Shown piece by piece: positions 26,611 through 41,910 of a stretch of 64,000 nt of DNA; position 1 is the first letter of the stretch, and each line of letters starts with the position of its first letter. The notes below the pieces were generated by a model. It did not search any database. It was not told the DNA's origin and worked only from the letters and a program-made list of their open reading frames with translations. A program made the translations under genes and the position numbers. Source of the DNA: Ramlibacter paludis (lineage in GTDB: Bacteria > Pseudomonadota > Gammaproteobacteria > Burkholderiales > Burkholderiaceae_C); the NCBI RefSeq assembly GCF_022012305.1, contig NZ_JAKLTM010000007.1:1-64000 (forward strand), in the 5' to 3' direction.

Positions 26611-28425
26611 TCAGGGCGCTACCTGCGACTGGTACTCCGGCACATGTTGCCGCAACCACGCACGTAAGGCCTCCGCGCCCGGCTGCGCCCCGGCGTCGTC
26701 GATCCAGCGCACCACCTCCTCCACATCGGGCAAGGGCCCGCTCGTCTTGGCGATGCGCAGCTTGGCGTGCGGCGTCGGCTCGGTGGTCTCGTCGTCGGCC
26801 AGCAGTTCCTCGTAGAGCTTCTCGCCCGGCCGCAGGCCGCTGAAGGCGATCGGCACCTCCTGCTCGGTCTTGCCCGACAGGCGGATCAGCATGCGGGCCA
26901 GTTCGACGATCTTCACCGGTTCGCCCATGTCCAGCACGAAGATCTGGCCCGAGCGCCCCATCAGCCCCGCCTGCAGCACCAGCTGCGCCGCCTCGGGGAT
27001 GGTCATGAAGTAGCGCACGATGTCCGGGTGCGTGACGGTCACCGGCCCGCCGCGCGCGATCTGCGCGGAGAAAAGCGGCACCACCGACCCGCTCGAGCCC
27101 AGCACGTTGCCGAAGCGCACGGAGACGAACTGCGTGCGCGGCTCGCGCAGCGCCACCGCCTGCACCAGCAATTCCGCCAAGCGCTTGCTCGCGCCCATCA
27201 CGTTGGTCGGGTTCACCGCCTTGTCGGTGGAGATCATCACGAAGCGCCGCACGCCGCAGGCCGCCGCGGCGCGCGCCGCGTTCAGCGTGCCCAGCACGTT
27301 GGTGCGCAGCGCCTCGATCTCGTTGTGCTGCTCCATCAGCGGCACGTGCTTGTAGGCCGCGGCATGGAACACCACCGCCGGCTGGTGCCGCTGCAGGATC
27401 GCGCGCAGGCGCTCCGGCTCGCGCACGTTGGCCGTGTAGTAGGCCGCCTGCATCTGCGGATGCGCGCGGCGCAGTTCCTGTTCGAGCTGGTAGATGTTGT
27501 ATTCGGAGACGTCGACGCAGACCAGGCGCCCGACGCCGAAGCGCGCCACCTGGCGGCACAGCTCGGAACCGATCGAGCCGCCGGCGCCGGTCACGACCAC
27601 CACCTGTCCCGAGAAGAGTTCGGCGAGGCCCGCGACGTCCAGCGCCACCGGCGCGCGTCCGAGCAGGTCCTCGAGTTCGATCTTGCGCGGGCCGGAGCTT
27701 TCGGCCTGCAGCCACTGGTCGGGGCGCGGCAGCGTCAGCAGCGTGATGCGCGCATCGGCCGCAACCAGCAGCGCCTCGCGCCGCTCGCTGGCGCCCGGTG
27801 CGCTGGCCAACAGCGCGGTGTGGACGCCGGCCGCGGCGCACACGTCCTGCAGCTGCGCGATGGTGCCCAGCACGCGCACGTCCTGCAGCGAGCGCCCGCG
27901 TTCCTGCGCCAACGGCGACACGATGCCGACAGGCCGCCACTTCTGCGAGCCCTTGAGCGCGCGCAGCGCGCCCGCCGCGTCCTGCAGCGACCCGACGATC
28001 ACCACCGGTTCGGCGCCCAGGCCGTGCAGCCGGCGTTCGGCCAGCGTGCGCCAGGCCGCGCGCGCCGCGCCCAGCAGCACGAGCGCCAGCAGCGGCTGCA
28101 GCAGCAGCACCGACCGCGGGAAGTTGGGGATGCGCAGCATCAGCACCGCCACGGCGGTGAGCACCGCGCCCAGCACGACGCCGCTGCCCAGTTGGCGCAA
28201 TTCGGACAGGCCGATGAAGGTCCAGACCTGGCGGTCCACGCGCATCACCACCAGGCCGGCCGCCAGCCCCAGCACGCACCAGGGGCTGGCCTGCCAGGCC
28301 AGCAGCTCGAAGTCGTCCGGGATGTCGAGGTTGAAGCGCAGCCAGAACGCGCCCCACCAGGCCAGCAGGCCCAGTGCGAGGTCCAGCGCCAGGAGCGGCA
28401 GCGCCGTCCTAGGCCAGCGCATCAC
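26611..28425 (-). CDS. Membrane-anchored nucleotide-sugar 4,6-dehydratase (PglF/LegB/WbpM type)
   Basis: This 604-residue protein has an N-terminal membrane region (about four helices, residues 10-125), a CoA-binding-like middle domain (about 138-260) and a C-terminal extended short-chain dehydratase domain. The NAD loop is GAGGSIGSEL (280-289); the catalytic group is Thr400, Asp401, Lys402 with Met410 and Lys414 in place of the usual YxxxK, as in PglF and WbpM. It is expected to convert UDP-GlcNAc to the 4-keto-6-deoxy sugar, the first step towards legionaminic acid. PseB enzymes are short and soluble, which argues against pseudaminic acid. It overlaps the aminotransferase gene by 17 bases. 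Confidence 0.9.
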   Translation of the reverse strand: MMRWPRTALPLLALDLALGLLAWWGAFWLRFNLDIPDDFELLAWQASPWCVLGLAAGLVVMRVDRQVWTFIGLSELRQLGSGVVLGAVLTAVAVLMLRIPNFPRSVLLLQPLLALVLLGAARAAWRTLAERRLHGLGAEPVVIVGSLQDAAGALRALKGSQKWRPVGIVSPLAQERGRSLQDVRVLGTIAQLQDVCAAAGVHTALLASAPGASERREALLVAADARITLLTLPRPDQWLQAESSGPRKIELEDLLGRAPVALDVAGLAELFSGQVVVVTGAGGSIGSELCRQVARFGVGRLVCVDVSEYNIYQLEQELRRAHPQMQAAYYTANVREPERLRAILQRHQPAVVFHAAAYKHVPLMEQHNEIEALRTNVLGTLNAARAAAACGVRRFVMISTDKAVNPTNVMGASKRLAELLVQAVALREPRTQFVSVRFGNVLGSSGSVVPLFSAQIARGGPVTVTHPDIVRYFMTIPEAAQLVLQAGLMGRSGQIFVLDMGEPVKIVELARMLIRLSGKTEQEVPIAFSGLRPGEKLYEELLADDETTEPTPHAKLRIAKTSGPLPDVEEVVRWIDDAGAQPGAEALRAWLRQHVPEYQSQVAP

Positions 28426-29911
28426 CCGGCGTCTCCGAACGGGCGAGCACGCGCCGCAGCTGGTCGATCACGCGCTCCTGCTGCGCCTCGCTCATGTTGG
28501 ATCCCGAAGGCAGGCAGATGCCGGCTTCGAACAGGTGCGCGGAGACATCGTTGCCTTCCGCGTGGGCGAAATACGGCGCGCCGGCAAAGAGCGGCTGCAG
28601 GTGCATGGGCTTCCACACCGGCCGCCCCTCGATCGAATGGCGCTCGAGGCTGCGCAGCACGCGGTCGCGCCGCGCTTCGCCACCCGGCAAGGTGAAGCAC
28701 GTGAGCCAGCGGGTCGAATGCATGCCGGCGGGCTCGGGCATCCACTGGATCTCGTCCAGGTCGGCCAGCGCTTCGCGGTAGGTCTCGAACACGGCACGGC
28801 GGCGCGCCACGCGCTGGTCGAGGACGCGCAGCTGGCCGCGGCCGATGCCGGCCAGCACGTTGCTCATGCGGTAGTTGAAGCCGACCTCGGTGTGTTCGTA
28901 GTGCGCTGCGGGTTCGCGCGCCTGTGTCGACAGCTTGCGCGCGCGGGCCACCAGGTCGGCGTCGTCGGCCACCAGCATGCCACCGCCGGAGGTCGTGATG
29001 ATCTTGTTGCCGTTGAAGGAATAGATCGCCACTCGGCCGAAGCTGCCGCTCGCCCGGCCCTTGTAGCGCGCGCCCAGCGATTCGGCCGCGTCCTCCAGCA
29101 TGGGCACGCCGTAGCGATCGCAGATCGGCTGCAGCGCGTCGATGTCGGCGCTCTGGCCGTACAGGTTGACCACGACCACGCAGCGCGGCAGGCGGTTCTC
29201 GCGCCTGGCCCAGGCGAAGGCGCGCTCCAGCGCCTGCGGCGACATGTTCCACGAGCCCGGCTCGGAGTCGATGAAGACCGGCTTGGCGCCGCAATAGAGG
29301 ATGGGATTGCTGCTGCCCACGAAGGTGAGCGAGGAGCAGAACACCGTGTCGCCCGGCTGCACGCCCAGCAGCAGCAGGGCGAGGTGGATGGCCGCGGTGC
29401 CCGAACTGAGCGCCGCCGCGTGGCCGACGCCGGCATAGGTGGCCAGTTCGCGCTCGAAGCCGTCGACGTGCGGGCCCAGCGGCGCGATCCAGTTGGTGCG
29501 GAAAGCTTCCTCGACGAAGGCCGTCTCTTCCTCGCCCAGGTGCGGCGAGGACAGCCAGATGCGGTTGGACAGCTCGCGCCGCAGTACGACGTCCACCGGG
29601 CGACCTTGCGCGTCGACCACGGGGACGTGGTCGATCTCGTGCTTGTCCATCAATGCGACCGCGGCCGGCAGGCCCTGGTCTTCGCCGACCGTGAGCGGCT
29701 TGCCATGCGGGAGCACCGAGACGCGCTCGGTGGCCGCAACGTTGTTCAGCGCGGCGCGGCGCATGTCGCCATCGGTCAACATGCGCAGCAACCTGCCATC
29801 GGCGTCCACCACCAGCAGCGCACCGCGCGCGGTCTGGTTGAGGCGCTCGAGCGCGTCGTGCAGCGTGCAATCGGGCGCGATGCAGAGCGCACGGAATTCC
29901 TGCTCCTTCAT
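28409..29911 (-). CDS. CBS-domain-fused DegT/DnrJ/EryC1/StrS aminotransferase (LegC/PglE-like)
   Basis: This 500-residue protein is a fusion. Residues 1-118 form a CBS pair (LHDALERLNQTARGALLVVD.., then AAVALMDKHEIDHVPVVDAQG). Residues about 122-500 form a PLP aminotransferase with SSGTAAIHLALLLLG, LEDAAESLGARYKG and the PLP lysine near residue 300 in SFNGNKIITTSGGG. It should add the 4-amino group to the keto sugar made by the neighbouring dehydratase. CBS pairs usually sense adenine nucleotides, so allosteric control is possible. ATG at 29911 overlaps the acetyltransferase stop by four bases; the longer frame 5' is rejected. Confidence 0.9.
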   Translation of the reverse strand: MKEQEFRALCIAPDCTLHDALERLNQTARGALLVVDADGRLLRMLTDGDMRRAALNNVAATERVSVLPHGKPLTVGEDQGLPAAVALMDKHEIDHVPVVDAQGRPVDVVLRRELSNRIWLSSPHLGEEETAFVEEAFRTNWIAPLGPHVDGFERELATYAGVGHAAALSSGTAAIHLALLLLGVQPGDTVFCSSLTFVGSSNPILYCGAKPVFIDSEPGSWNMSPQALERAFAWARRENRLPRCVVVVNLYGQSADIDALQPICDRYGVPMLEDAAESLGARYKGRASGSFGRVAIYSFNGNKIITTSGGGMLVADDADLVARARKLSTQAREPAAHYEHTEVGFNYRMSNVLAGIGRGQLRVLDQRVARRRAVFETYREALADLDEIQWMPEPAGMHSTRWLTCFTLPGGEARRDRVLRSLERHSIEGRPVWKPMHLQPLFAGAPYFAHAEGNDVSAHLFEAGICLPSGSNMSEAQQERVIDQLRRVLARSETPGDALA

Positions 29912-30531
29912 CGCACCCTCCGTGCCGGCACGCCGGCATAGACGCCGGGTTCGAGGATGGGAGCGCGGACGACGGCCCCCGCGCCGAGCGTCACGCCGTC
30001 GCACACGCGCAGGCCCGGCAGCACGCTGGCGCCGGCGCCCACCAGGACGCCGCGTCCGACCTGCACGCCGCCCCCGAGGGCCGCTTGCGGGGCGACATGG
30101 GTAAAGGCGCCGACCTGCGCATCGTGGTCGACGACCGCGCCGTGGTTGACGATGACGCCGCGGCCCAGGACGGCCGACGGTGCCAGCACCGCCCGGGCGG
30201 CAACGAAGCAGCCCGCTTCGACCACGGCATGCGGCGACACGGTCGCGGCCGGATGGACGATGGTGGCCAGCGCACGTCCGGCCACCAAGTCGCTTTCGCG
30301 TTCGCGCGCCTCGGCGGCGCCGATCGCCACGTGGAAGTCGGCATCGTCCAGCGCGAGCGCTGCATCCAGTGGCAGCAGGATCACGCCGGGCAGCAGCTCG
30401 CCGCGGCAGCGCGCCGGGTTGCGGTCGGTGGCGACCACGCGGCTCCAGTGGCCGCGCGCGAGCGCCGCGTCGGCGACCACCTTGCCGTGGCCGCCCGCGC
30501 CCAGGATCACGAGGGTGGAAGCTTGCTTCAC
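29908..30531 (-). CDS. NeuD/PglD-type sugar O/N-acyltransferase
   Basis: This 207-residue protein has a nucleotide-sugar-binding N-terminal fold (LVILGAGGHGKVVADAAL) and a left-handed beta helix of hexapeptide repeats (about 95-195: VIVNHGAVVDHDAQVG, VQVGRGVLVGAGASVLPG). The catalytic-base histidine is in NHGAVVDHD. It belongs to the NeuD/PglD family; in this cluster N-acetylation of the 4-amino sugar to a UDP-2,4-diacetamido sugar is most likely. Acyl-chain specificity cannot be read from sequence. Confidence 0.88.
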   Translation of the reverse strand: MKQASTLVILGAGGHGKVVADAALARGHWSRVVATDRNPARCRGELLPGVILLPLDAALALDDADFHVAIGAAEARERESDLVAGRALATIVHPAATVSPHAVVEAGCFVAARAVLAPSAVLGRGVIVNHGAVVDHDAQVGAFTHVAPQAALGGGVQVGRGVLVGAGASVLPGLRVCDGVTLGAGAVVRAPILEPGVYAGVPARRVR

Positions 30532-30538
30532 GCGTTGT

Positions 30539-31678
30539 CTAGTAGGAGTTGATCTTTTCCAGGAGGCCGGCGGCTAGCGGCAGGGTGGCGAGCAGCTGCG
30601 CGATGCGTTCGCCGGCATGGCCGTCACCCCATCCATTGTCGCATCCGTAGCGCCCGTGGCCGAGCTGCTGCGCGAGGCCGCGCGCGATGGCGCCCTCTTC
30701 CGCCGGTACGTCCAGCACATTGGGACCGTGCTCGCGCATCCGCTGGCGGTCGCCGATGTTCAGCACAGGCGTGCCGAAGCTAGCGGCTTCGATCACGCCC
30801 GAGGAGGAATTACCGGCCAGCGCTTCGCAATGACGCAGTGCAGCGGCATACAAGGGGCGCGGCAAGTGGGTGACGCGCCGGGAACCGGGTGGCAGCGTGG
30901 CGGCGTCCAGCGCGCGCAGCACCTCGCGCGAGCCGGCATCGGCATTCGGTTCCAGCCAGACCACCGGCAGCTTCGCCTGCTGCAGGGCGCGCACCAGGGC
31001 CTGCGTCTGCGCGGCAGCCTCGCCGGCCTGTTGGACCACGGGGTGGAACAGCACCAGCACGAAACGGCTGCCCGCGGGCAATTGCAGCGCGGCGAGGCAA
31101 TCCTCGCGCTCCATGGCGGCCAGTGCCTGCAGGCCATCGAGGCCGGGCGCGCCGGTGACGTGGATACGCCCTGGTTCCTCGCCCATGCGCGCGAGGCGCT
31201 CCCGCGCCTGCGCGGTGGCGACGAAGTGATAGCTGGCCAGCTTGCTGATCGCGTGCCGCACCGGTTCGTCGACGGTGCCCGAGCGCTCGCCGCCGTGGAT
31301 GTGCACGCAGGGCACGCCCACGTGCAAGGCCGCGATGGTGCCGGCCAGCATCTCGCCGCGGTCGCCCAGCACCAGCAAGGCATCCGGGCGATCGCGTGCC
31401 AGCAGTTCGGTCATGCCTTGCAGGCAGGCGGCGATGCCTTCGGCCATGCTGGCGCCGCTGCGCGTGGCCATGTCGTACGGGATGCGGGCGCAGATGTCGA
31501 GGCCGCTGGCTGCCACTTCATCGACGGTGTGGCCATGCGCGGCGGACAGGTGCTGGCCGGCCACCGCCAGCTGCAGGCGCAAGCCCGGCGTCGCGGCGAT
31601 GCGCTGCAAGGTCGATTGCATCAGGCCGAAATCGGCGCGCGTTCCGGTGAGGTAGACGATGCGCCGCGCTTCAGCCAT
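30539..31678 (-). CDS. neuC: UDP-sugar 2-epimerase, hydrolysing (NeuC/LegG-like)
   Basis: This 379-residue GT-B-fold enzyme opens TGTRADFGLM and contains DALLVLGDRGEMLAG, HIHGGERSGTVDEPVRHAISKLA and GNSSSGVIEAASFGTPVLNIGDRQ, the family's UDP-binding and catalytic segments. NeuC acts on UDP-GlcNAc; with PglF-, LegC- and PglD-like genes alongside, the substrate here is more likely UDP-diacetamido-bacillosamine, giving the free 2,4-diacetamido-6-deoxymannose. It overlaps the synthase gene by eight bases. Confidence 0.92.
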   Translation of the reverse strand: MAEARRIVYLTGTRADFGLMQSTLQRIAATPGLRLQLAVAGQHLSAAHGHTVDEVAASGLDICARIPYDMATRSGASMAEGIAACLQGMTELLARDRPDALLVLGDRGEMLAGTIAALHVGVPCVHIHGGERSGTVDEPVRHAISKLASYHFVATAQARERLARMGEEPGRIHVTGAPGLDGLQALAAMEREDCLAALQLPAGSRFVLVLFHPVVQQAGEAAAQTQALVRALQQAKLPVVWLEPNADAGSREVLRALDAATLPPGSRRVTHLPRPLYAAALRHCEALAGNSSSGVIEAASFGTPVLNIGDRQRMREHGPNVLDVPAEEGAIARGLAQQLGHGRYGCDNGWGDGHAGERIAQLLATLPLAAGLLEKINSY

Positions 31679-32702
31679 CCAGCTGGTCCCATTGCAGCAC
31701 GCTGCCGGCGGAGATGGCGGAGCGCGCCGTCCGTCCCAGCACCTGGTCCCACTCGCGCGGGGCGATGCCGGTGGCCGGGCGGCGGCAGGCCAGCATGGCG
31801 GCCGTGAGTTGCGCGCCGGCCGGGATGTCCTGCAGGGCGACGATGCTGCGGCGGGCGACGCGCGCGGCGTCCTCCTCCTCGGGCCGCCGCGCCTTCACGC
31901 CGTCGCCGCGCATTCCGGCGATGCGGCGGATGCCGCGCACCATGGCCGCGAATTCCTCGGGCTCCAGCGAGGCCGCATGGTCGGGGCCGGGCAGCGTGCG
32001 GTCCAGCGTGATGTGCTTCTCGATCACGGTCGCGCCGAGCGCCACCGCGGCCAGCGATGCTTCGATGCCGGTGCTGTGGTCGGAGTAGCCGACGGCCAGG
32101 CCGGTCGCCTGCGCCAGCGTCTCGATCGCGCGCAGGTTCAGCGCTTCGTCGGCGGCGGGATAAGCGGAGGTGCAATGCAGAACCGCGACGTCGTCGGTGT
32201 TGCCGCGTGCAGCGCGCACCCAGGCCAGCGCCTCCTGCACTTCGGCCAGGGTGGCCATGCCGGTGGACATGAGCAGCGGCAAGCCGCTGGCCGCAGCCTT
32301 CGCCACCAGCGCGCGATGCGTGAGTTCACCCGAAGGCATCTTCAAGCGCTTGACGCCCAGGCGAACCAGCATGTCCACCGCGTCCTCGGAAAAGGGCGTG
32401 GAGAAGAACTCGATGCCGATGCCGGCGCAATGCTCCTGCAACTGCCGGTGCTGGTCCTCGCTCAATTCGAGCTTGCGCAGCATCGCGAACTGGTCGCTCT
32501 CGCCGGTCTGGCGCGACTGGTAGGCCGCGGTCGGCGCGCCCGGCACCACCAGGTCCTCGGCGCGAAAGGTCTGGAACTTCACGGCGTCCGCGCCCGCGGA
32601 CTTGGCGACGTCGCACAGGCGGCGCGCCAGCGCCAGTTCGCCGTTGTGGTTCACGCCGGCTTCGGCGATGACGAAGACTTCAGCCGCCACGGCCCGCCCC
32701 AT
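31671..32702 (-). CDS. neuB: N-acetylneuraminate synthase family enzyme (NeuB/LegI-like)
   Basis: This 343-residue enzyme condenses phosphoenolpyruvate with an N-acetyl-mannose-type sugar to a nine-carbon 2-keto acid. The TIM barrel shows EAGVNHNGELALA, AVKFQTF, STPFSEDAVD, KMPSGELTH and YSDHSTGI with EKHITLDRTLPGPDH; a C-terminal SAF (antifreeze-like) domain spans about 280-343 (RSIVALQDIPAGAQLT). All metal- and PEP-binding motifs are intact. The gene set suggests a 2,4-diacetamido-6-deoxymannose substrate, that is legionaminic acid synthesis. Confidence 0.93.
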   Translation of the reverse strand: MGRAVAAEVFVIAEAGVNHNGELALARRLCDVAKSAGADAVKFQTFRAEDLVVPGAPTAAYQSRQTGESDQFAMLRKLELSEDQHRQLQEHCAGIGIEFFSTPFSEDAVDMLVRLGVKRLKMPSGELTHRALVAKAAASGLPLLMSTGMATLAEVQEALAWVRAARGNTDDVAVLHCTSAYPAADEALNLRAIETLAQATGLAVGYSDHSTGIEASLAAVALGATVIEKHITLDRTLPGPDHAASLEPEEFAAMVRGIRRIAGMRGDGVKARRPEEEDAARVARRSIVALQDIPAGAQLTAAMLACRRPATGIAPREWDQVLGRTARSAISAGSVLQWDQLDG

Positions 32703-33387
32703 GCCTGGCCAGCAGCCACTCGGCGTATTCGAAGTCCTCGAGGCCGTCGATGTCGACGGACTTCCAGCGCGGCATCTCGTAAGGCACGCACTGCACGCTC
32801 CACAGGCCGTGCTCGGCGGCCTTGGCCAGCGCCGCGCGCTGCCACACGTAGATCGAGCCGTTCAAGGCGTAAACCGCGGGCACGTCCTGGCGCCGGCCGC
32901 TGCCGTCGCCCTTGGACAGGCGCACCGTTCCATCGGGCTGCGCTTCCACGAGATTGAAATACGGGTTGTCATGCGCCGCGGTGACGCTCACCACCAGCTC
33001 CGCCTCAGGCTGCAGGGCGAGCGCCGCTTCGATGTCGGCGCTGCGGCGCAGCGGCGACGTGGGCTGCAGGTCGACGATGCGGGCGATGGCTGCGCCTTCC
33101 GCTTCGAGGTAGCGCACCAGGTGCTCGATCACCGGCAGCTTGGGCGCGGCATCGGTCGCCAGTTCGGCCGGGCGCAGGTAAGGCACCTGGGCGCCGGCGC
33201 CGCGGGCGATGTCGGCGATGGCGGGATCGTCCGTGGACACGTACACGCCCGCGATGTGTTCGCAGCGCAGCGCCTGCAGGATCGTGTGCACGATCAGCGG
33301 CCGGCCGGCGAAGGCGCGGATGTTCTTGCCCGGCAAGCCTTTGCTGCCGCCGCGCGCGCAGATCGTGGCGATGGTCTTGGCTTTCAT
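32680..33387 (-). CDS. Acylneuraminate cytidylyltransferase family enzyme (NeuA/LegF-like)
   Basis: This 235-residue enzyme activates a nonulosonic acid with CTP to the CMP-sugar. ICARGGSKGLPGKNIR is the CTP-binding loop; YVSTDDPAIADIA, DLQPTSPLRRSADIE and a C-terminal VDIDGLEDFEYAEWLL metal-binding motif follow. It overlaps the NeuB-like gene by 23 bases and the HisH-like gene by four. It completes the minimal nonulosonate route. Confidence 0.93.
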   Translation of the reverse strand: MKAKTIATICARGGSKGLPGKNIRAFAGRPLIVHTILQALRCEHIAGVYVSTDDPAIADIARGAGAQVPYLRPAELATDAAPKLPVIEHLVRYLEAEGAAIARIVDLQPTSPLRRSADIEAALALQPEAELVVSVTAAHDNPYFNLVEAQPDGTVRLSKGDGSGRRQDVPAVYALNGSIYVWQRAALAKAAEHGLWSVQCVPYEMPRWKSVDIDGLEDFEYAEWLLARHGAGRGG

Positions 33388-34022
33388 AGCGCGAGGAACC
33401 TGTGCAGCATGCCGAGGCCCGCGTGCGCGCTGCGCTCGGGGTGGAACTGGCAGCCGGTCAGGTTGCCGCTCTGGACCGCCGCGCAGATGCTGCGGCCGTC
33501 GTAGTCCACGTCGGCCAGGCGCACCTGCGCATCCGCGGGGTCCGCGCTGAAGGAGTGCACGAAGTAGGCGCGCTCGCCGGGCGCCACCTCGGCCAGGATG
33601 CTGCGGCTCCAGTCGCGCGCGGCTTGCAGCGGCCGCCAGCCGATGTGGGGGACGCGATGCGGCTGGCCGTCGCCGCCGGTGGCGGGAATGGCCCGCACGC
33701 GGCCGCCCAGCAGGCCGAGGCCGGCATGCTCGCCCATCTCCTCGCTGGCCTCGAACATCATCTGCATGCCGACGCAGATGCCCAGGAAAGGCCGGCCGGT
33801 GGCGGCGAAGCGGCGCACTAGGTCGTCGAAGCCGCGCGCGCGCAGTTCCGCCATGCCGTCGCCGAAGGCGCCAACACCGGGCAGCACCAGCCGCGGCGCG
33901 TTCAGCGCCTCGGGGCTCGCCTTGTCGATCACGGTGGGCGTTGCACCGCAATGCTCCAGCGCGCGCAGCACGTTCAGCAGGTTGCCGATGCCGTAGTCGA
34001 GGACGGTCACTGGGATGCTCAT
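33384..34022 (-). CDS. hisH: HisH-type glutamine amidotransferase, acetamidino-modification paralogue
   Basis: This 212-residue class I glutaminase releases ammonia from glutamine. The nucleophile is Cys83 in LGICVGMQMMFE, and the His/Glu pair is in TGCQFHPERS. It pairs with the adjacent HisF-type gene (four-base overlap). Histidine synthesis genes are absent from the whole neighbourhood and a sugar amidotransferase lies next door, so this pair should supply ammonia for acetamidino formation rather than for imidazole ring closure. Confidence 0.88.
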   Translation of the reverse strand: MSIPVTVLDYGIGNLLNVLRALEHCGATPTVIDKASPEALNAPRLVLPGVGAFGDGMAELRARGFDDLVRRFAATGRPFLGICVGMQMMFEASEEMGEHAGLGLLGGRVRAIPATGGDGQPHRVPHIGWRPLQAARDWSRSILAEVAPGERAYFVHSFSADPADAQVRLADVDYDGRSICAAVQSGNLTGCQFHPERSAHAGLGMLHRFLAL

Positions 34023-34789
34023 GCCGGCCTCTCCTCGCGGACATCGAAGCCGGCGGCGCGTGCATGCGCCTTGATGTCGGCCAGCGACATGCGCTTCCAG
34101 TGCAGGGCATCGGCCACGGCGACCGCAGACAGGTCGATGCCCGCCAGGGCCTGCAGGTGTTCCGCGGCGCCGAAGCCGCCGCTCAGGGTGACCGGAACGC
34201 TCACTGCGTCGCAGACCTGCTGCGCCAGCGGCACGTCGAAGCCCTTGCGCGTGCCTTCCTGGTCGACGGAAGTGAGCAGCACTTCGCCGGCGCCGCGGTC
34301 CACGGCTTCCTTGACCCACTGCACCACGTCCTTGCCGGTGCGCTCACGGCCGTTGTCGGTGTAAGCCTCCCATTTGCCGGGGGCGACGCGCTTGGCCTCC
34401 ACGCTCAGCACCATGCACTGCGAGCCATAGCGTTTGGCCACTTCGCCGATCAGGTCCGGCCGCGCGATGGCGGCCGTGTTGATCGCGACCTTGTCGGCGC
34501 CCGACAGCATCATGGTCGCCACGTCGGCGAGGCTGCGGATGCCGCCGCCCACCGTGATCGGCACGTAGACCTGGTCGGCCGCGCGCTTGATGATGTCCGA
34601 CAGGTTGTTCCGCTGGTAGAGGCTGGCGACGATGTCGATGAACAGCAGTTCGTCGGCGCCTTCGTCGTAGTAGCGGATCGCGTGCTCGTTGGGGTCGCCG
34701 ACGACGCGCAGGCCCTCCAGGTGGATGCCCTTGATGAGGTTGGGCCCCTTGATGTCCAGGCGGGCGATGACGCGGAGATGGCGCGTCAA
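34019..34789 (-). CDS. HisF2/AglZ-type acetamidino modification protein
   Basis: This 256-residue TIM barrel resembles imidazole-glycerol-phosphate synthase subunit HisF, but its N terminus reads RLDIKGPNLIKGIHLEGLRVVGDPNE, the version found in polysaccharide clusters, rather than the housekeeping CLDVKDGRVVKG. The Asp12 equivalent, ITVGGGIRS and LLTSVDQEGTRKGFD are retained. With the HisH-type gene and the PP-loop amidotransferase on either side it forms the trio that converts an N-acetyl to an acetamidino (N-acetimidoyl) group in P. aeruginosa and Legionella glycans. Confidence 0.88.
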   Translation of the reverse strand: MTRHLRVIARLDIKGPNLIKGIHLEGLRVVGDPNEHAIRYYDEGADELLFIDIVASLYQRNNLSDIIKRAADQVYVPITVGGGIRSLADVATMMLSGADKVAINTAAIARPDLIGEVAKRYGSQCMVLSVEAKRVAPGKWEAYTDNGRERTGKDVVQWVKEAVDRGAGEVLLTSVDQEGTRKGFDVPLAQQVCDAVSVPVTLSGGFGAAEHLQALAGIDLSAVAVADALHWKRMSLADIKAHARAAGFDVREERPA

Positions 34790-34790: not shown

Positions 34791-36107
34791 TCATGCTCCG
34801 TCGAACACGGTGTGCCGCAGCTTCCACTGCCCGCCTTCGTGCTTCCACAGGTGCGGCGAGCGGAAGGTGTCGGCCAGCTTCATGAAGTAGGCGCGGTCCA
34901 TCGTCGGCGACTCGAACATCTTCGAGGCCTGCGGGAACTCCTTGGCCGGGATGCTGAGGTAGCGGAAGATTTCCTCGGCGAAGCGCTCCGGGAATTCGCC
35001 GTCGTAGCGCCGCACCAGGGCCACGCCTTCCTCGCGCGTGATGTCGCCCGAACGGATCTCCTGCGCGGCGTCGTAGGTCGCGCGGCCGATGCCGAACTTG
35101 GTGAAGGTCGTGTAGTAGTGGAAGTCGTCGATGCGGTCGTCGATGCTGTTGTACTTGCTGTAGGTGCCGGGCGTGCGCTCGGGCGAAGCCTCGAAGCCGC
35201 CGTGCTCCACCGCGTAGTAGTAGCAGCTTTGCGGGTGCCACTTGAGGTAGTAGCCCAGGTAGTGCACCTCGATGTTCTTCTGCTGGATCTGCTGCGGGTC
35301 GGCCGGCAGGTAGGGCAGCAGGTCCTGGGGCTCCAGGCCGTAGTCGTCGTACAGGCTCTGGATCGACACGCCGCCCAGGTAGATCTGCGACTTGTCCTGC
35401 GCGGTGAAGTACGACCAGTCGCGCTTGGCGCTGGTGGTGTCGCCGATCGGGTTGCCGTATTCCGCCTCGTTCTCGCCGTAGATCACGAAGGGGATGTCGT
35501 GCAGGATCGCCATCTTGGGCGCCAGCGACTTCTGGCCGAACATGAAGGCCTGGAAAGGGTGGAACAGGTTTTCCACCGCCAGCCGCGTGAGCAGGCGGTG
35601 CACCCGGCCGTTCGGCGTGGTCAGTTCGTTGTCGAAGCCCGCGTGCAGCCACGACTGGAAGTTCTTCCAGCCCCACTCGGTGTAGACGTGCGGCGCCCAG
35701 GTCACCGTGAGCGGGTGCATGCCGAAGCGCGTCTTCAGGATGTGCGAGGCGTAGAAGCTGTCCTTGCCGCCGGAGCCCGGCACCAGGCAGTCGTAGCCGC
35801 TCTTGCTGCGGAACTTGTCGCACAGCGCGGCCAGCTGGTCCTCGCGCTGCTTCCAGTCTATGGTGGCGTTCTTCTGTTCGGCGAAGCGGCAGGCGTCGCA
35901 GATGCCTTCCTCGTCGAAGTTGATCGTGGCCTTCTTGCTGGCCTTGGTGTGCTGGTACTCGACCGCGGAATTGGGCCGCTGGTTGGAGATGACGCAGCGC
36001 CTGCAAAAGTGCACGTAGCGCGGCAGGCCGTACTTCACCTCGGCCTGGTCGTCGGGCAGGGCAAAGGCGGCGAGGTCGGTGGTCTGCGGGGCGGGAATCA
36101 GGGACAT
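34791..36107 (-). CDS. N-acetyl sugar amidotransferase (WbpG/PseA family)
   Basis: This 438-residue PP-loop ATPase has zinc-binding cysteines Cys35, Cys38, Cys70 and Cys73 and the ATP pyrophosphatase loop PGSGGKDS (110-117). The long C-terminal part (YLGYYLKWHPQSCYYYAVEHGG, TYSKYNSIDDRIDDFHYY) is typical of the family. It is expected to activate the acetamido oxygen of the sugar with ATP and replace it with ammonia delivered by HisH/HisF2. It lies one base upstream of the HisF2 gene and six bases after the GT-B gene. Confidence 0.92.
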   Translation of the reverse strand: MSLIPAPQTTDLAAFALPDDQAEVKYGLPRYVHFCRRCVISNQRPNSAVEYQHTKASKKATINFDEEGICDACRFAEQKNATIDWKQREDQLAALCDKFRSKSGYDCLVPGSGGKDSFYASHILKTRFGMHPLTVTWAPHVYTEWGWKNFQSWLHAGFDNELTTPNGRVHRLLTRLAVENLFHPFQAFMFGQKSLAPKMAILHDIPFVIYGENEAEYGNPIGDTTSAKRDWSYFTAQDKSQIYLGGVSIQSLYDDYGLEPQDLLPYLPADPQQIQQKNIEVHYLGYYLKWHPQSCYYYAVEHGGFEASPERTPGTYSKYNSIDDRIDDFHYYTTFTKFGIGRATYDAAQEIRSGDITREEGVALVRRYDGEFPERFAEEIFRYLSIPAKEFPQASKMFESPTMDRAYFMKLADTFRSPHLWKHEGGQWKLRHTVFDGA

Positions 36108-36113: not shown

Positions 36114-37304
36114 TTATAAAAAACCGTCCAGCACAGCCAGCACCCGCTCGGTCGCCCCGCCCCCGCCTTGCGTCGCGCGGCGGCCGGCGCGGCTGGCGCG
36201 GTCCAGGGCGGCGCGCAGGTCCGGCAGGGGGACGGCGGCGTCGGCGATGCCGAAGCGGGCCAGCGGCATGGCCGCATCGAAAACCGAGCCGAGCACCTGC
36301 ACCAGACGCGCACCGGCGAGGTGGCCTTCGAGGCCCACGGTGGAGGTCAGGGTAACGACCAGGTCGACGGCGTGCAGCAGCGGTGGCAGCGGCCAGTCCT
36401 GGCCGGTGAGGACGATGCGTTCGTGGCTGGGAAGCGCCGGCAGGGCTTGGCCGGAGCGGGCGCGCACGCACAGCACCGCGTCGGGCTGGGCCAGGGTCCA
36501 GTCCACCAGGCACTGCAGGGCGCGATCCGGCAGCGTGGGGTCGCCGGGCGTGCCGTCGAAGGGATGCAACGCGGGTTCGACCTGTGCCGGCCACAGCAGC
36601 ACGCGCTTGCCCTGCCAGCCGTGGCTGGCGCGCAGGGCTGCGCCTTGCTGGGCGAGGCCGGGCGCCTGCAAGGCATCGAAGGCCGGATTGCCGGTGGCGA
36701 CGATTTCATGGGGCTGTCGTCCGGCCGCGACGAGGAACTCGCGCACGGACTCGTTCAGCACGCAGACGCGGTCGGCATAGCCCGGCTGCGCGATCCAGCG
36801 CACTTCGTCGACGGCGAACAGGTCGACCACGCAGACGGCGGGAATGCCCAGCGCGCGCGCCGCCTCGATCGCGGCACGTTCGGCGCGCGGCGAGTTGGTC
36901 GCCACCAGCAGGTCGGGCTGCACGCGGCGCAGGATGCGCTCCAGCGTGCGGCGCGGCAGGAAGGCCTGGCGGCCGTCGAGCGCGTAGCGGGCCGCGGCTT
37001 CCTGCGCGCCGACTTCCGCTCCGAGATCGGCGTACGAGAGGCCCAGGTAGGCGGCCGTCTCCTCGGGATCGACCACGTTGGCCAGCGTCGCGGTGAGCTC
37101 GCGTCCGCGCGCCAGCGCCGCTTCGTCCCCGGGCTGCACGAAATCCTTGACTTGCAGCAAGGGCAAGCCGGCCTGGCGCACATCGCCGGCGGCCGTCGTG
37201 AGGCCCAGCACCTGCACCTGGACTTTTCCCCGGAGCGCTTGCGCCAGCGGCAGCACCATGCGCACGTGCCCGCTGCCGTAGCAAACGAACAGGACTTTCT
37301 TCAT
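36114..37304 (-). CDS. GT-B-fold glycosyltransferase-like protein, specificity unknown
   Basis: This 396-residue protein opens with a Rossmann strand and glycine-rich loop (KKVLFVCYGSGHVRMVLPLAQAL) and has a second half with VLLWPAQVEPALHPF and a nucleotide-sugar-type loop TSTVGLEGHLAGARLVQVLG. The two-domain architecture resembles UDP-GlcNAc 2-epimerases and GT-B transferases. It lacks the hydrolysing epimerase motifs of its neighbour. As the only glycosyltransferase-like gene in the cluster besides the phosphoglycosyl transferase, it is a candidate for transferring the finished nonulosonic acid, but this is inference. ATG at 37304 overlaps the asnB stop by four bases. Confidence 0.7.
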   Translation of the reverse strand: MKKVLFVCYGSGHVRMVLPLAQALRGKVQVQVLGLTTAAGDVRQAGLPLLQVKDFVQPGDEAALARGRELTATLANVVDPEETAAYLGLSYADLGAEVGAQEAAARYALDGRQAFLPRRTLERILRRVQPDLLVATNSPRAERAAIEAARALGIPAVCVVDLFAVDEVRWIAQPGYADRVCVLNESVREFLVAAGRQPHEIVATGNPAFDALQAPGLAQQGAALRASHGWQGKRVLLWPAQVEPALHPFDGTPGDPTLPDRALQCLVDWTLAQPDAVLCVRARSGQALPALPSHERIVLTGQDWPLPPLLHAVDLVVTLTSTVGLEGHLAGARLVQVLGSVFDAAMPLARFGIADAAVPLPDLRAALDRASRAGRRATQGGGGATERVLAVLDGFL

Positions 37305-39085
37305 GCCACCTGCGCCTGGCGCGCCCACAGGGCCAGCGCCGCCAGCGCGCGCAGTTCACGCGTGTGGTTGGCGCTGCCGTCGCGGTGCTGCTCCAGCAAG
37401 GCCGTCACGGCCTCGGGCCGTAACAGGCGCTGCAGCAGCGGGCTGCCTTGCAGCAGGCCGGACAGCCACGGATAGCTCTCCTTGCGGAACCACTCGCCCA
37501 CCGGCACGGTGAACATCTGCTTCTTGCGGTAGGCCAGGTCGTGGCCGATCAGGGGCTCGACCGCCTTCTTGTACCAGTGCTTCTTGTCGCCGCTCGCGCC
37601 CAGCTTGGTCACGCCGCGCGAGCGGAAGGCGAACTCCATCATCCGCCAGTCGAGGAAAGGCGTGCGCGCCTCGATCGACACCGCCATGCCCATGCGGTCC
37701 GGCTTGACCAGGTTGTTGCCCGAGAGCAGCAGCTGCATGTCGAGGTACAGCGCCTGGTTGACGCGGTCGAAGTGCGCGGCTTCCTCGAACCAGGGCTGCG
37801 CGGCCGCGGCAAAGCTGTCGATGCCTTGCAGTCGTGCCGCGACTGCGGGCTGGTAGAGCGCTTGCTTGGCCTGTGGCGTGAACAGCGAGATCGCATCGAA
37901 ATAGCCGCGCTGGAATTCGCCGTCGGGCAGGTCCGCGACGCCGGGCCGCGCGAAGTACTGCTCGTACTTCTCGTAGCCGGCGAACAGCTCGTCGCCGCCG
38001 TCGCCGGTGAGCACCACCTTGACGTGCTTCGCCGCGAGTTCGCTCACGCGCAGCGTCGGCAGGAAGGACGCGTCGCCGTGCGGCTGGTCCAGGTGGTAGA
38101 GCACGTGCTCCCAGCGATCCAGCATGTTGAGTTCGGCGACTTCCATCGTGTGGTCGCAGCCGAAGCGCTTGGCCGCCTCGGCCGCGAAGGGCGACTCGTC
38201 GAAGCGCGGGTCCGCAAAGCCGATGCAGAAGGTCTTGACCGGCCGGTTCACGTGACGCGCCATCAGCGCGACGATGGTGCTGGAGTCGACGCCGCCGGAG
38301 AGGAAGGCGCCCCAGGGCACGTCGGCGCGCAGGCGGATGCGGGTGGCGTCGTCGAGGATGGCGAGGAACTCGCGCGACCAGTCCGCGAATTCGAAGTCCT
38401 GTTCACGCTGGTCGGCCAGGTTCCACCAGCGGTGCGTCTCGCTGCCGCTGCGCGTGAACTTCATCCAGGTGCCCGGCATCACGTGGCGCACGCCTTGCCA
38501 GATGGTCCAGGGCGCCGGGATGTAGTTGAAGCTCAGGTAGTGGTGCACCGCTTCCAGGTCCACCTCGCGCGGGCCGGAGGCGGCAAGCATGGACTTGAGT
38601 TCGGAGGCGAACAGAACGCGGCCACCTTCGTCCTGGAAGTACAGCGGCTTCACGCCGATGCGGTCGCGCGCCAGGTACAGCGCGTCCTGGTTCGCGTCGT
38701 CGATGGCGATGGCGAACATGCCGTTCAGGCGTGGCAGGCAGGCGATGCCTTCGCGCTCGTACAGCCGCAGGATCACCTCGGTGTCCGAATGCGTCTGCAG
38801 CTGCACGCCTTGCGCGCGCAGTTCCTCGGCGAGCTCGACGTAGTTGAAGATCTCGCCGTTCTGCACCACCGCGATGCGGCCGTCGTCGGACACGAAAGGC
38901 TGGTGGCCGCCCGCGATGTCGATGATGGACAGGCGGCGGTTGCCGATGGCGACGCCGCGCGCCGGCTGCGACCAGACACCGGCATCGTCGGGGCCGCGAT
39001 GCCGCAGCTTGTCGCCCATGGCGGCCAGCGCCGCCACGTCGAGGGGACGCCGGCCGCGATCCCAGTAGCCGAAGATGCCGCACAT
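37301..39085 (-). CDS. asnB: Asparagine synthase (glutamine-hydrolysing) family amidotransferase
   Basis: This 594-residue protein has an Ntn glutaminase domain beginning MCGIFGYWDRG (Cys2 nucleophile), with RHRGPDDAGVW and VQNGEIFNY, and a synthetase domain with the ATP loop FLSGGVDSSTIV and LTGDGGDELFAGYEKYEQYF. AsnB-type paralogues in glycan operons are thought to amidate sugar carboxylates or other acids; plain asparagine synthesis remains possible. It lies two bases after the sugar transferase gene, with conserved order in the 14-gene run. Confidence 0.9.
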   Translation of the reverse strand: MCGIFGYWDRGRRPLDVAALAAMGDKLRHRGPDDAGVWSQPARGVAIGNRRLSIIDIAGGHQPFVSDDGRIAVVQNGEIFNYVELAEELRAQGVQLQTHSDTEVILRLYEREGIACLPRLNGMFAIAIDDANQDALYLARDRIGVKPLYFQDEGGRVLFASELKSMLAASGPREVDLEAVHHYLSFNYIPAPWTIWQGVRHVMPGTWMKFTRSGSETHRWWNLADQREQDFEFADWSREFLAILDDATRIRLRADVPWGAFLSGGVDSSTIVALMARHVNRPVKTFCIGFADPRFDESPFAAEAAKRFGCDHTMEVAELNMLDRWEHVLYHLDQPHGDASFLPTLRVSELAAKHVKVVLTGDGGDELFAGYEKYEQYFARPGVADLPDGEFQRGYFDAISLFTPQAKQALYQPAVAARLQGIDSFAAAAQPWFEEAAHFDRVNQALYLDMQLLLSGNNLVKPDRMGMAVSIEARTPFLDWRMMEFAFRSRGVTKLGASGDKKHWYKKAVEPLIGHDLAYRKKQMFTVPVGEWFRKESYPWLSGLLQGSPLLQRLLRPEAVTALLEQHRDGSANHTRELRALAALALWARQAQVA

Positions 39086-39087
39086 GG

Positions 39088-39642
39088 CTAGTTGGCTCCC
39101 TTGCCGGTGAGGCGGCCCAGGGTCCAGAAAAGGATTTGCAGGTCGAGTGCCAGGCTCTGCTCGCGCACGTAGCGCAGGTCCAGGTCCAGGCGCTGCTCTG
39201 GCGTGGCCTCGGAGCGCAGCCTGGCCTGCGCGAGGCCGGTGATGCCGGGCCGCACGCTGCAGCGCGCCTGCCAGTCCTGCGACGTGTAGAGCGAACGCTG
39301 CGCCGGCACGTCGGGCCGCGGGCCCACCAGGCTCATCTCGCCCTTCAGCACGTTCAGCAGCTGCGGCAACTCGTCGAGGCTGGTGCGGCGGAGGAAGCGG
39401 CCGCTGCGCGTGATGCGCGGGTCGTCGCTGGCCGTGTGGTACGGGCCGATGGCGGCGGCGTTCTTCACCATGCTGCGGAACTTGTAGAGCCCGAACTCGC
39501 GGTCGCCGCGGCCCACGCGCTGCTGCTTGAACAGCACCGGCCGCCCGCTCTCCAGGGCGATCGCGACGGCGACGGCCAGCAGCACCGGCGACAACAGCAG
39601 CAGGGCCAGGGCGGACACGAGGACGTCCAGCAGGCGCTTCAT
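39088..39642 (-). CDS. Small phosphoglycosyl transferase (PglC-like sugar transferase)
   Basis: This 184-residue protein is the bare catalytic domain of the bacterial sugar transferase family. One N-terminal re-entrant or membrane helix ([21 protein letters not shown]) is followed by [47 protein letters not shown] and RPGITGLAQ. The Asp-Glu pair in SLDELPQ matches the catalytic dyad. It should move a phosphosugar from a UDP-sugar (probably UDP-diacetamido-bacillosamine, as PglC does) to undecaprenyl phosphate, starting a lipid-linked glycan. Confidence 0.92.
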
Positions 39643-40445
39643 GCGCGCGCGGCCAGGCCGGCGGAGATGCCGGTGATGGCGTCGGCGATGCGCCGCGCAT
39701 CGGCCTGCACCTGCGGCGGCGTACGACTGGCCAGGCCGGCCTCGACTTCGCGCAAAGCCTGCACCTCGTGTTCGAACACCACGTCCGGGTCGTCGCGGTG
39801 GAAGGTGCGCGAGAGGATCACCGCGCCCGAACCCAGGCGCAGGTGTTCGGCCAGCACGTCGCGCCCCGGCAGCAGGCCCTCTTCCAGGCGCGCGATGCCG
39901 CCGAAGCCGAAGCGCAGGCCGCGCGCCTTGGCCGCTCGTGCAACGCGTTCGACGGTACCGTCGGCCAGCGGCTGGAACATGAAGCGATGGCCCAGCGACA
40001 GGTGCAGGTCGTTCAGGCCGACATAGATCTCCTGCAGTCCCGGCGTGTCCGCCCACTCGTCCAGCGACTGCAAGGCGCCGGCGGTTTCCAGCAGCGGCAC
40101 GATGGGCGCGCGGCCCGCAACCAGCGCCGAAAACTCCCGCAAGGTGCGCGCCGTGGTGAACATCGGCAGCATCAGCAGGTCCGCGCCCTGCGCCAGCACG
40201 GCGTCGACTTCGCCGGCCGTCCCCGCATGCAGCGGGTTCACGCGCACCATCAGGCGCGAGTTGCGCAGCGCGCGCTTCACGCGGCCCACGTCATCGACCT
40301 GGTGCGTGCTGATGAAGGTGTTGCGCCCGGCCTGGCGTTCCGCCTTGCCGTTCCTTTCCAGGTCCACGAACAGGCGAAAGCCGCCCAGGGCGTCGCAGCG
40401 CTGCGCGAACGCCGGGTCGTTCGTGATCTGGATCAACTCGAGCAT
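39639..40445 (-). CDS. HpcH/HpaI aldolase / citrate lyase family protein in glycan cluster
   Basis: This 268-residue TIM barrel has the family strands VDLERNGKAERQ, LMVRVNPLHAGTAGEVDAVLAQGADLLMLPM, the metal-binding Glu in VPLLETAGAL, and GLNDLHLSLGHRFMFQ. It is distinct from the CitE-like gene near mdh. A role in a polysaccharide operon is not established: it may make or break a small acyl or keto-acid precursor for glycan decoration. It overlaps the sugar transferase start by four bases and follows the flippase gene by seven. Confidence 0.82.
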   Translation of the reverse strand: MLELIQITNDPAFAQRCDALGGFRLFVDLERNGKAERQAGRNTFISTHQVDDVGRVKRALRNSRLMVRVNPLHAGTAGEVDAVLAQGADLLMLPMFTTARTLREFSALVAGRAPIVPLLETAGALQSLDEWADTPGLQEIYVGLNDLHLSLGHRFMFQPLADGTVERVARAAKARGLRFGFGGIARLEEGLLPGRDVLAEHLRLGSGAVILSRTFHRDDPDVVFEHEVQALREVEAGLASRTPPQVQADARRIADAITGISAGLAARA

Positions 40446-40452
40446 GGCGAAA

Positions 40453-41910
40453 TTATCGCCGCAGGGCCGCACGCAGGTCCGCGCTGGCCCACCAGGTGGC
40501 GCCCAGCACCGCCACGCCGGCCGCAACGCCTGCAACCAGTTGCAAACCAAGCTGCGCGGGTGCGCCCGCCACGGCGAGCAAGGCGCGCACCGCGAGCAGC
40601 ATGGCCAGCGCCACGCCGAGCGCGCGCCAGGGCAGCCAGGACCGCAAACCCTCGCCCACGGCCGCCAGCGTGACCAGGGCGATGCCGGCAAAGCACAGGT
40701 TGAGCCACAGCATGAGGCCGGCGCCGTCGTGGGGCCCATAGGCCAGCAGCGCCACCAGGGCCACGGCATAGGCAGCAACCGCAGGTCGCATGCGCGCCTG
40801 CGAGGCGAGAATCGCCAAGGCGATGGCGGTCAGCGCCTGCGGCAGCAGCCCCCAGGCCGCGATCCGGCCCCAGTCGGCGACTTGCACGAGGGCGCCCGCC
40901 TGCATGCGGCCCCAGCCGAAAAGAAGCTGCGCCAGCGCCGGAGCGGCCACCAGGAGTCCGGCGGCGCTCGCGCAGGCCAGCGCCCAGGCCAGGGCGAAGC
41001 CGCGGCGAATCGTTCCGGCTGCCTCGTCGCGCGTCGCCGCGCGCCCCAGCGCCTGCGCGATCGGTCCCAGCGCCAGCGTGGCCACCAGTTGCACGGCCAG
41101 CAGCAGCGGGAGTTCCGCCAGTTTCCAGCCGTAGTTGAAGGTCGCGAGCGCGCCCGGCCCCTGCTGCGAAGCGAGCGAGCGCGCGGCGAACGGCAGCGCC
41201 AGCGGCAGCCCCGCCGAGGCGACCGCCCAGAACCAGACGGGAGCCCGCGGCAGCTCCGAACCTTCGGGCTGCAAGGGCACGCTGGCAAAGGGACGCTGGC
41301 GCAGCGCCAACCACAGCAGCCGCGCGACCATCGCGGCCAGCAGCCCGGCGCCCAGGACGTGGACCGCTGCCCCGGCATGAGCGGCCGTGACCCAGGCAAC
41401 GGCGGCCAGCGAGGCAATCACCAGGCCGTTGACGACCACGTTGGCGCCATAGAGGCCGACGAAATCGCGCTCGAACTGCAGGCGCGTCGCCCACAAGGCC
41501 GCCAACAGGGCCAGCGGCAGCGCCACCGCGCTCCACAGCAGGGCCATCTCCGCTGCCGGGATCAGCTCGTTCGGCAAGCCGCCCGCCAGCGCCCGCACCC
41601 CCCAGGCATTCAGCGCACCCAACAGCGCGGCCGCCAGGCAGCCTGCCAGCAGCAGCCCATGGGCCGCGCGGCGCTGGCTGGCCGCGACCTGGCCGGCGCC
41701 CTGCCGGGACCAGGCCGGCAACAGCACGTAAGCGAGCCCGCCGCTGGCCAGCACGCCGGCCAGCCAGTCCGGCAGGGACAGCATCAGCACCGCCACGTCG
41801 CCCAGGCCGGTGGCGCCGAAGGCCGCGGCCTGGACGGACTCCCGCGCCAGTCCCAGCAAGCGGCTGGCCAGCAAGAGGGAGAGCGAAAGAAGGCCGGCCC
41901 GGAGAAACAT
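40453..41910 (-). CDS. MurJ/MviN-type lipid-linked oligosaccharide flippase
   Basis: This 485-residue, highly hydrophobic protein has about 12-13 membrane segments and belongs to the MurJ branch of the MOP superfamily ([42 protein letters not shown]). It is the first gene of the glycan run and shares its divergent control region with lysS. Location suggests it flips the undecaprenyl-linked product of this cluster in place of a Wzx protein; it could instead be the housekeeping lipid II flippase, which the window cannot decide. It has no Shine-Dalgarno sequence before the ATG. Confidence 0.82.

Follow-up and report, generated by a model that had tools for sequence, protein, structure and literature searches.

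A predicted acetamidino-legionaminic acid operon of Ramlibacter paludis consists of a conserved frame around an exchangeable cassette

A stretch of 64,000 nucleotides of Ramlibacter paludis DNA (NCBI RefSeq assembly GCF_022012305.1, contig NZ_JAKLTM010000007.1, positions 1 to 64,000; hereafter the window) carries on its minus strand, at 26611-41910, a run of 14 genes which, judging from the sequence and with a probability that we put at about 78%, makes the cytidine monophosphate (CMP)-linked sugar CMP-5-acetamidino-7-acetamido-legionaminic acid (Leg5Am7Ac) from uridine diphosphate (UDP)-linked N-acetylglucosamine (GlcNAc) and feeds it into a lipid-linked surface glycan, its sugar genes being swapped as a block. 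The run is made of two layers, a conserved frame around an exchangeable cassette, and is not one evolutionary unit. The frame comprises the MurJ-like, HpcH, phosphoglycosyltransferase, AsnB and PglF genes and the catalytic domain of the aminotransferase; the cassette extends from the GT-B glycosyltransferase gene to NeuD and includes the pair of CBS domains at the N-terminus of the aminotransferase. An earlier note on this DNA had proposed a CMP-linked legionaminic acid with an N-acetimidoyl group, a prediction that gains support from collinearity with Legionella, from the NeuB and NeuC trees and from the nearest solved relatives of the proteins; the CBS pair is absent from that note.

All reading frames of the run are open, and the run is bounded by genes on the opposite strand, with the start of lysS at 41973 and the end of a LON-domain gene at 26607 (both names from inspection of the translations). 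The same gene order was seen again in relatives, so the arrangement is not due to chance. Open reading frame (ORF) coordinates agree with the 14 genes on one strand and the 23-base overlap of NeuA and NeuB given in the earlier note, and family-model searches with its assignment of the genes to families; of its junction range the overlap, which is the widest, stood, and with the starts chosen here the widest gap is 7 bases and not 8. In order of transcription the genes are:

40453-41910, minus strand: MurJ-superfamily flippase, a second paralog and likely exporter of the lipid-linked glycan (frame; PF03023, TIGR01695; hydrophobic stretches)
39639-40445, minus strand: HpcH/HpaI-type aldolase or lyase (frame; PF03328; fold model)
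39088-39642, minus strand: short phosphoglycosyltransferase, PglC/WbaP catalytic unit (frame; PF02397, 225.8 bits)
37301-39085, minus strand: AsnB-type glutamine-dependent amidotransferase (frame; TIGR01536, 433 bits, over cut-off; Cys2; SGGVDS motif)
36114-37304, minus strand: GT-B fold glycosyltransferase, proposed nonulosonic acid transferase (cassette; fold model; identity tracks the WbpG module)
34791-36107, minus strand: WbpG/PseA/WbuX N-acetyl-sugar amidotransferase (cassette; TIGR03573, 394.7 bits, cut-off 203.2; SGGKDS; two CxxC)
34019-34789, minus strand, TTG start: HisF2/WbuZ, ammonia-channel partner of the amidotransferase (cassette; PF00977)
33384-34022, minus strand: HisH-type glutaminase, ammonia supply (cassette; TIGR01855, 194.8 bits; GICVGMQ and QFHPE motifs)
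32680-33387, minus strand: NeuA/LegF-type CMP-nonulosonate cytidylyltransferase (cassette; PF02348; CMP-NeuAc synthetases in the PDB)
31671-32702, minus strand: NeuB, nonulosonate synthase of the legionaminic class (cassette; PF03102 and SAF; tree; Gly/Ser/Tyr signature)
30539-31678, minus strand: NeuC/LegG hydrolysing UDP-sugar 2-epimerase (cassette; PF02350; PDB match; tree)
29908-30531, minus strand: NeuD/PglD hexapeptide N-acetyltransferase (cassette; TIGR03570, 185.6 bits, over cut-off; PglD and pilin glycosylation relatives in the PDB)
28409-29911, minus strand: fused CBS pair (about residues 1-112) and PglE/LegC aminotransferase (about residues 117-489; CBS and DegT domains; PglE relatives in the PDB)
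26611-28422, minus strand: PglF/WbpM-type membrane UDP-GlcNAc 4,6-dehydratase (frame; PF02719, 386 bits; hydrophobic N-terminal stretches)

From these families we infer the enzyme activities, the C5 position of the acetamidino group, the role in export and the role of the CBS pair. The CBS-aminotransferase and NeuD would yield UDP-N,N'-diacetylbacillosamine, from which NeuC would release diacetamido-trideoxy-mannose; NeuB would add pyruvate and NeuA would then add CMP. WbpG would convert the C5 acetamido group to acetamidino with ammonia that comes from HisH via HisF2. The phosphoglycosyltransferase would put the first sugar-phosphate on the lipid carrier and so start the glycan, the GT-B enzyme would attach the nonulosonic acid, and the MurJ-like protein would flip the lipid-linked glycan. 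Recombination would replace the cassette as a block inside the frame, changing the acid that is displayed.

A named counterpart came from a scan of named genomes with an alignment of the CBS-aminotransferase, in which the best 80 of 582 confirmed stretches were considered, 24 were mapped and 17 used. One locus of Legionella worsleiensis (L150) is collinear with the window over WbpG, HisF2, HisH, NeuA, NeuB, NeuC, NeuD and CBS-aminotransferase (identities of 77, 61, 48, 39, 46, 44, 42 and 54%, in that order), and shares with it the fused CBS-aminotransferase and the HisF2-HisH pair. A full-length PglF-type dehydratase is encoded elsewhere in the L. worsleiensis genome (41%). For L. pneumophila, the excerpted text of PMC3766260 ties ORFs 21 (aminotransferase), 22 (NeuD), 23 (NeuC), 24 (NeuB), 25 (NeuA) and 28 (PtmG homolog) to CMP-Leg5Ac7Ac and CMP-Leg5Am7Ac, with the dehydratase lpg0966 outside the locus. 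The window resembles these O-antigen genes in content and in order as named in that excerpt (ORFs 26-27 are unnamed there), and would share with them the UDP-N,N'-diacetylbacillosamine precursor and the Leg5Am7Ac product (PMC3766260). Unlike Legionella, the window has PglF inside the operon, and among Ramlibacter relatives the cassette is swapped, one of its edges lying within the aminotransferase gene; HpcH, phosphoglycosyltransferase, AsnB and the MurJ-like protein have no match in 21 kb of the L. worsleiensis locus.

Trees of NeuB (95 of 111 collected rows; 6 dropped by length and 10 as near-copies) and NeuC (56 of 65 rows; 9 near-copies dropped) were computed by a quick method with SH-aLRT support only, and context labels of the rows were set by hand from tblastn gene-content maps. 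NeuB of the window lies within a starred set of 21 rows, exclusively CBS-type legionaminic, and joins L. worsleiensis in a group of 37 rows (support 82, not starred); the 38 CBS-type rows need 3 changes on this tree against a shuffled mean of 30.1. PseI groups with 19 of the 22 pseudaminic-context rows, and a starred group unites NmNeuB with 3 others of the 7 sialic rows; both lie apart from the window. The NeuC tree places the window and L. worsleiensis together in a starred CBS-type set of 36 rows. Both proteins thus fall in legionaminic groups with Legionella, as the phylogeny proposed in the earlier note was to decide, with rows L100-L103, L024 and L025 (below) as exceptions. The top PDB match of NeuC is a GDP/UDP-N,N'-diacetylbacillosamine 2-epimerase. 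At the NeuB signature positions (the Gly/Phe switch and those aligned to N184 and Y186 of NmNeuB) all 48 CBS-type rows, near-copies included, read GSY, and other contexts read GTY (PtmE-type, 7/10), GNY (4/7) or GTY (3/7; both sialic) and FSY (pseudaminic, 20/22). The mostly Thr of PtmE-type rows and the Ser of CBS-type rows at the N184-aligned position differ from the Tyr given there for legionaminic synthases in the excerpted text of PMC7371886.

An acetamidino group is indicated by WbpG, far over its cut-off, with HisH and HisF2 as partners and with motifs intact. The three-gene module has a counterpart in the WbpG/HisH2/HisF2 module of Pseudomonas aeruginosa, which acts on an N-acetylmannosaminuronic acid derivative and not on a nonulosonic acid. 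HisF2 is the third such paralog of the genome, which elsewhere holds two adjacent His_biosynth genes, presumably HisF and HisA; it reads VEAK where the chromosomal HisF-like protein reads IDAK, in which we take the Asp to be catalytic in HisF, and where three relatives read IEAK. WbpG has an identity of at least 84% in 10 of 37 same-genus genomes. In the distant loci L020, L078, L082, L138, L139 and L150 it reaches 73-77% among neighbour genes mostly at 37-68%, and in L080, L087, L142, L143 and L146 only 42-52%; these two levels suggest that one WbpG type either evolved slowly or was transferred later.

The predicted structure of the GT-B protein (pLDDT 91) matched GT-B-type folds, a search that does not distinguish CMP-sugar transferases from other GT-B enzymes. 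The 8 loci whose WbpG module is at least 80% identical have GT-B proteins 62-84% identical to that of the window, and the 19 others have ones at 33-53% (p 3e-05, with rows that are not independent). Between these groups HpcH, phosphoglycosyltransferase, the MurJ-like protein and PglF did not differ (p 0.35-0.97; for PglF only 3 against 18 loci), AsnB differed slightly (median 80 against 78, p 0.011), and NeuA, NeuB and NeuC showed a larger contrast. The GT-B gene therefore travels with the sugar, as would be expected of its transferase. At one locus, L026, WbpG (43%) and the GT-B protein (49%) are both of another kind within an otherwise window-like cassette, and as these two genes adjoin, a single event could explain their joint replacement.

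As to the nucleotide carrier, the earlier note had preferred a UDP route over a guanosine diphosphate (GDP) route for want of a PtmE-like nucleotidyltransferase. Family models found no PtmE-like protein among the 14 genes, to which the search for PtmE in this genome was confined, and the LegB short-dehydratase model TIGR04180 gave 39.2 bits against a cut-off of 475; together with a PglF-like dehydratase, whose top PDB match is WlaL/PglF, this argues for the UDP route. The same is suggested by what the window shares with Legionella: gene order, the NeuC and NeuB groupings and an available PglF-type dehydratase. In Campylobacter the CMP-legionaminic pathway (Ptm/Leg genes) runs by the GDP route. 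Homologs of NeuB, NeuC, aminotransferase and amidotransferase are common to both, and the CBS pair is shared by analogy with PtmE-like loci; unlike Campylobacter, the run is without PtmE and has its CBS domains on the aminotransferase instead of on a nucleotidyltransferase. Another legionaminic pathway is that of the Bacillus subtilis sps genes, for which the excerpted text of PMC7439481 describes UDP-linked precursors and a first reaction of PglF type, pglF having restored legionaminic acid in an spsM mutant; that excerpt describes no acetamidino module, and a spore crust takes the place of the Ramlibacter frame (PMC7439481).

The two-layer structure was seen by comparing loci between lysS and the LON gene within the genus (type labels A-E and P are our own). 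HpcH was strong (E < 1e-100) in 31 of 37 same-genus genomes, of which G006, G010, G019 and G027 were left out of the frame-locus set. Wherever both ends of these loci were reached, PglF stands at one end and the MurJ-like, HpcH, phosphoglycosyltransferase and AsnB genes at the opposite end, and the contents between them differ. On a tree of HpcH, phosphoglycosyltransferase and AsnB from 27 loci, locus type changed 14 times, hardly fewer than the shuffled mean of 15.3 (as low in 46 of 200 shuffles), and on the NeuB tree 7 times, compared to 15.4 (as low in 0/200). A mosaic is seen even within the fused aminotransferase gene (25 rows): its CBS half required 5 label changes (0/200 shuffles as low; few well-supported branches) and its catalytic half 11 (13/200 as low), the CBS half moving with the cassette and the catalytic half with the frame.

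The sister loci L017 and L035 show where the exchanged block begins and ends, each of which lies with its flanks on a single contig of a draft genome (completeness 79 and 94%, contamination 1 and 9%). Their frames and the flanking lysS are nearly alike (lysS 98, AsnB 92, phosphoglycosyltransferase 88, HpcH 93, aminotransferase domain 95 and PglF 93%, with the MurJ-like protein within 88-98%) and their cassettes are not (CBS 41, GT-B 44, NeuB 61%), with WbpG, HisF2, HisH and NeuD present in just one of the two. Compared as DNA, the two loci are about 92% identical until the last 180 bases of AsnB, where identity drops to 57-73%; around codon 113 of the aminotransferase gene it climbs again, from about 50% to 87%. 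A like pattern at greater distance was found for L016/L033 and L018/L039 (CBS 50 and 43%, catalytic domain 85 and 83%), and a milder contrast for L015/L028, of types A and B (CBS 68%, domain 85%). Same-type pairs were alike in both halves (L033/L036, CBS 86 and domain 88%; L028/L031, 87 and 90%), so the CBS half is not merely fast-evolving. New here are the division into frame and cassette, the finding that one boundary lies within the aminotransferase gene, and the placement of the CBS pair.

Other frame loci hold other contents. L038 and L116 carry a NeuB with no NeuC or CBS-aminotransferase match. In L038 (7423-15483) NeuB and a flavin amine oxidase domain share one 888-amino-acid open frame beside class III aminotransferase, short-chain dehydrogenase/reductase, cytidylyltransferase and methyltransferase genes, a set that possibly makes an undescribed nonulosonic acid. 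In Ramlibacter montanisoli (L029/L151) the matches to NeuB and to the aminotransferase gene are each split into two separate pieces, as with pseudogenes or sequencing errors.

The CBS pair was fused to the aminotransferase in 47 of 107 loci; in the stretch examined, none of these gave another, unfused CBS match at E 1e-8, and 33 had a long PglF. This fused count is biased, since 17 of the 47 (rows L138-L153 and L178) were chosen by the CBS-aminotransferase query. In 11 other loci a separate CBS protein occurs with no long PglF in the stretch examined. Ten separate CBS proteins were scanned, 9 of them CBS with a nucleotidyltransferase (PtmE-like) and 1 CBS with a GHMP kinase; the latter fusion, in L113 (6697-8106) near a NeuB/NeuC cluster, is a third carrier of the CBS domain. 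Among the 60 loci drawn with NeuB (L078-L137), 7 were scored as fused (L084 and L108 weakly, at 30-35%) and 10 had a PtmE-like CBS protein (9 scanned, L093 not). A limited literature search, on which we rest no wider claim, found no description of a CBS-aminotransferase in legionaminic synthesis.

The pair is likely a regulatory part of the cassette, and its occurrence on a PtmE-like protein in some loci and on the aminotransferase in others suggests a shared control of legionaminic synthesis. We propose tentatively, at somewhat less than even odds, that the CBS pair is a product sensor matched to its cassette, making the fused aminotransferase an allosteric flux valve that is re-set with each swap, and that a sensor of the same kind sits on PtmE in the GDP route. 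That the CBS half instead hitchhikes without any cassette-specific role, crossovers falling in the aminotransferase domain as the first stretch similar enough to recombine, we consider an even bet: identity jumps at the domain boundary, and catalytic domains share about 80% identity whether or not their types agree, but the pair is kept in all 25 aligned same-genus fused genes, its TDGD-RR stretch is invariant in 8 diverse members, and CBS pairs recur on PtmE-like proteins.

Of the frame genes, the MurJ-like protein scored 52.7-52.9 bits with PF03023 and 63.8 bits with TIGR01695, against a cut-off of 235.55 for the lipid II flippase MurJ, and a stronger MurJ (401.7 bits) is encoded elsewhere in the genome; with the His_biosynth pair also elsewhere, the MurJ-like and HisF-like genes of the run are extra copies. 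PDB relatives of the phosphoglycosyltransferase are WbaP and N,N'-diacetylbacillosaminyl-1-phosphate transferase. The HpcH protein (pLDDT 89) has the class II pyruvate aldolases HpaI, HpcH and YfaU as its top folds, followed in the list by pyruvate kinases and acyl-CoA lyases (TM about 0.6), and its H48, R68, E120 and D146, to which we presume a catalytic role, are invariant in 16 of 16 aligned relatives. It is rare, being found at E 1e-15 in 6 of 397 sampled genomes of the phylum, the window's own included: beside AsnB, the GT-B gene and a legionaminic set in G178, within a frame with a NeuB in G366 (locus L116), near a phosphoglycosyltransferase only in G404 and G159, and near none of the queries in G271 (31% identity). 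Four contigs of Proteobacteria metagenome-assembled genomes (L149, L152, L153 and L178) carry HpcH, phosphoglycosyltransferase, AsnB, GT-B, NeuA, NeuB, NeuC, NeuD, CBS-aminotransferase and PglF with no WbpG match. AsnB was considered as the acetamidino enzyme and rejected as unlikely, because it also occurs in loci without the WbpG module.

The product could be a protein-linked oligosaccharide and not a polysaccharide, which we think rather unlikely. The run has one phosphoglycosyltransferase, one glycosyltransferase, one flippase and a set resembling PglF, PglE and PglD, with no polymerase gene found within it by family-model searches; against this, surface-antigen loci typically exchange their sugar genes in blocks, and five Wzy_C matches lie elsewhere in the genome, a domain that occurs in protein ligases too. 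Two of these matches adjoin on contig C15 (228454-230225) and are candidate ligase or polymerase genes for the glycan of the locus.

It is improbable that the same enzymes make a sugar of other stereo- or regiochemistry, whether 8-epi- or 4-epi-legionaminic acid or one with the acetamidino group at C7 and not C5. Sequence does not fix the position of amidination, 8eLeg5Am7Ac is reported in Aliivibrio salmonicida (excerpted text of PMC7371886), and L019, L028 and L037 have extra oxidoreductase genes near NeuA/NeuB, so that the genus may contain variants; the window, however, has no additional epimerase or oxidoreductase gene between its nonulosonate genes, and the cassette is collinear with that of Legionella.

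Several findings weigh against Leg5Am7Ac synthesis by an exchangeable cassette. HpcH and AsnB have no assigned step in the pathway, and the lack of a polymerase gene in the run counts here as well. The aminotransferase lies below its NCBIfam cut-off (363.8 of 420) and HisF2 below both HisF2-type cut-offs (259.1/299.7 and 182.8/310). The best folds of the GT-B protein are 2-epimerases and GT1-type enzymes (TM about 0.5-0.6), with no sialyltransferase among the best 50 of 245. Rows L101-L103, labelled Neu by content, fall inside the PtmE-type legionaminic clade in both trees and L100, labelled PtmE-type, is placed with sialic rows by the NeuB tree, which shows that labelling by context is imperfect; L024 and L025, with a fused aminotransferase, stand at the edge of the CBS group for NeuB and among PtmE-type rows for NeuC. 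On a lysS tree of 22 loci types changed 9 times against a shuffled mean of 12.5 (as low in 2/200), types A and C being scattered and B and D forming one group each, so exchange is not free of descent. NCBIfam, finally, names NeuB a sialic acid synthase and NeuC a UDP-GlcNAc 2-epimerase, both over cut-off.

These names are what speaks for a sialic acid (Neu5Ac) pathway with accessory genes, which we regard as very improbable. NeuB and NeuC of Legionella receive identical names, so these models do not separate the pathways and the label is evidence neither way; the operon holds a dehydratase, an aminotransferase and an acetyltransferase, and its NeuB stands apart from NmNeuB.

A pseudaminic acid pathway, for which PseF as best NCBIfam match of NeuA (145/205.7 bits) and a pseudaminic set in the same frame at another locus of the genus may be cited, is more improbable still, as PseB (169.9/407.75), PseC (256.4/423.5), PseF and PseI (276/340.25) are all below cut-off in the window, the matches listed by the family-model search include neither PseG nor PseH, and NeuB has the Gly and not the Phe. 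The earlier note had argued from a long membrane dehydratase in place of a short PseB, which fails: locus L042 has, at 6032-17783 in the frame, PseB, PseC, PseF, PseG and PseI over cut-off, a PseH domain below it (52.5/93.1) and an amidotransferase, and still carries a long PglF, so a long dehydratase alone does not exclude pseudaminic acid and was rejected as a marker. The genome with this locus holds a second frame locus (L041) and has a listed contamination of 6%.

Elsewhere in the window, a FimV-like protein that is very rich in Ala and Pro and contains a long TPAP repeat is encoded at 17774-20767, next to truA and the trp genes (names from reading of the translations).

The best-known sources of acetamidino-legionaminic acid are Legionella and Campylobacter, and a collinear, exchangeable cassette in Ramlibacter and other environmental bacteria would make it a mobile module of surface chemistry and not a speciality of pathogens. 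AsnB and the rare HpcH-type lyase, both found with the frame, may point to a further decoration of the glycan. If the proposal for the CBS pair is true, one control principle would be placed on two different committed steps, that of the aminotransferase and that of PtmE. Sister genomes that differ naturally in the cassette make the role of each gene testable.

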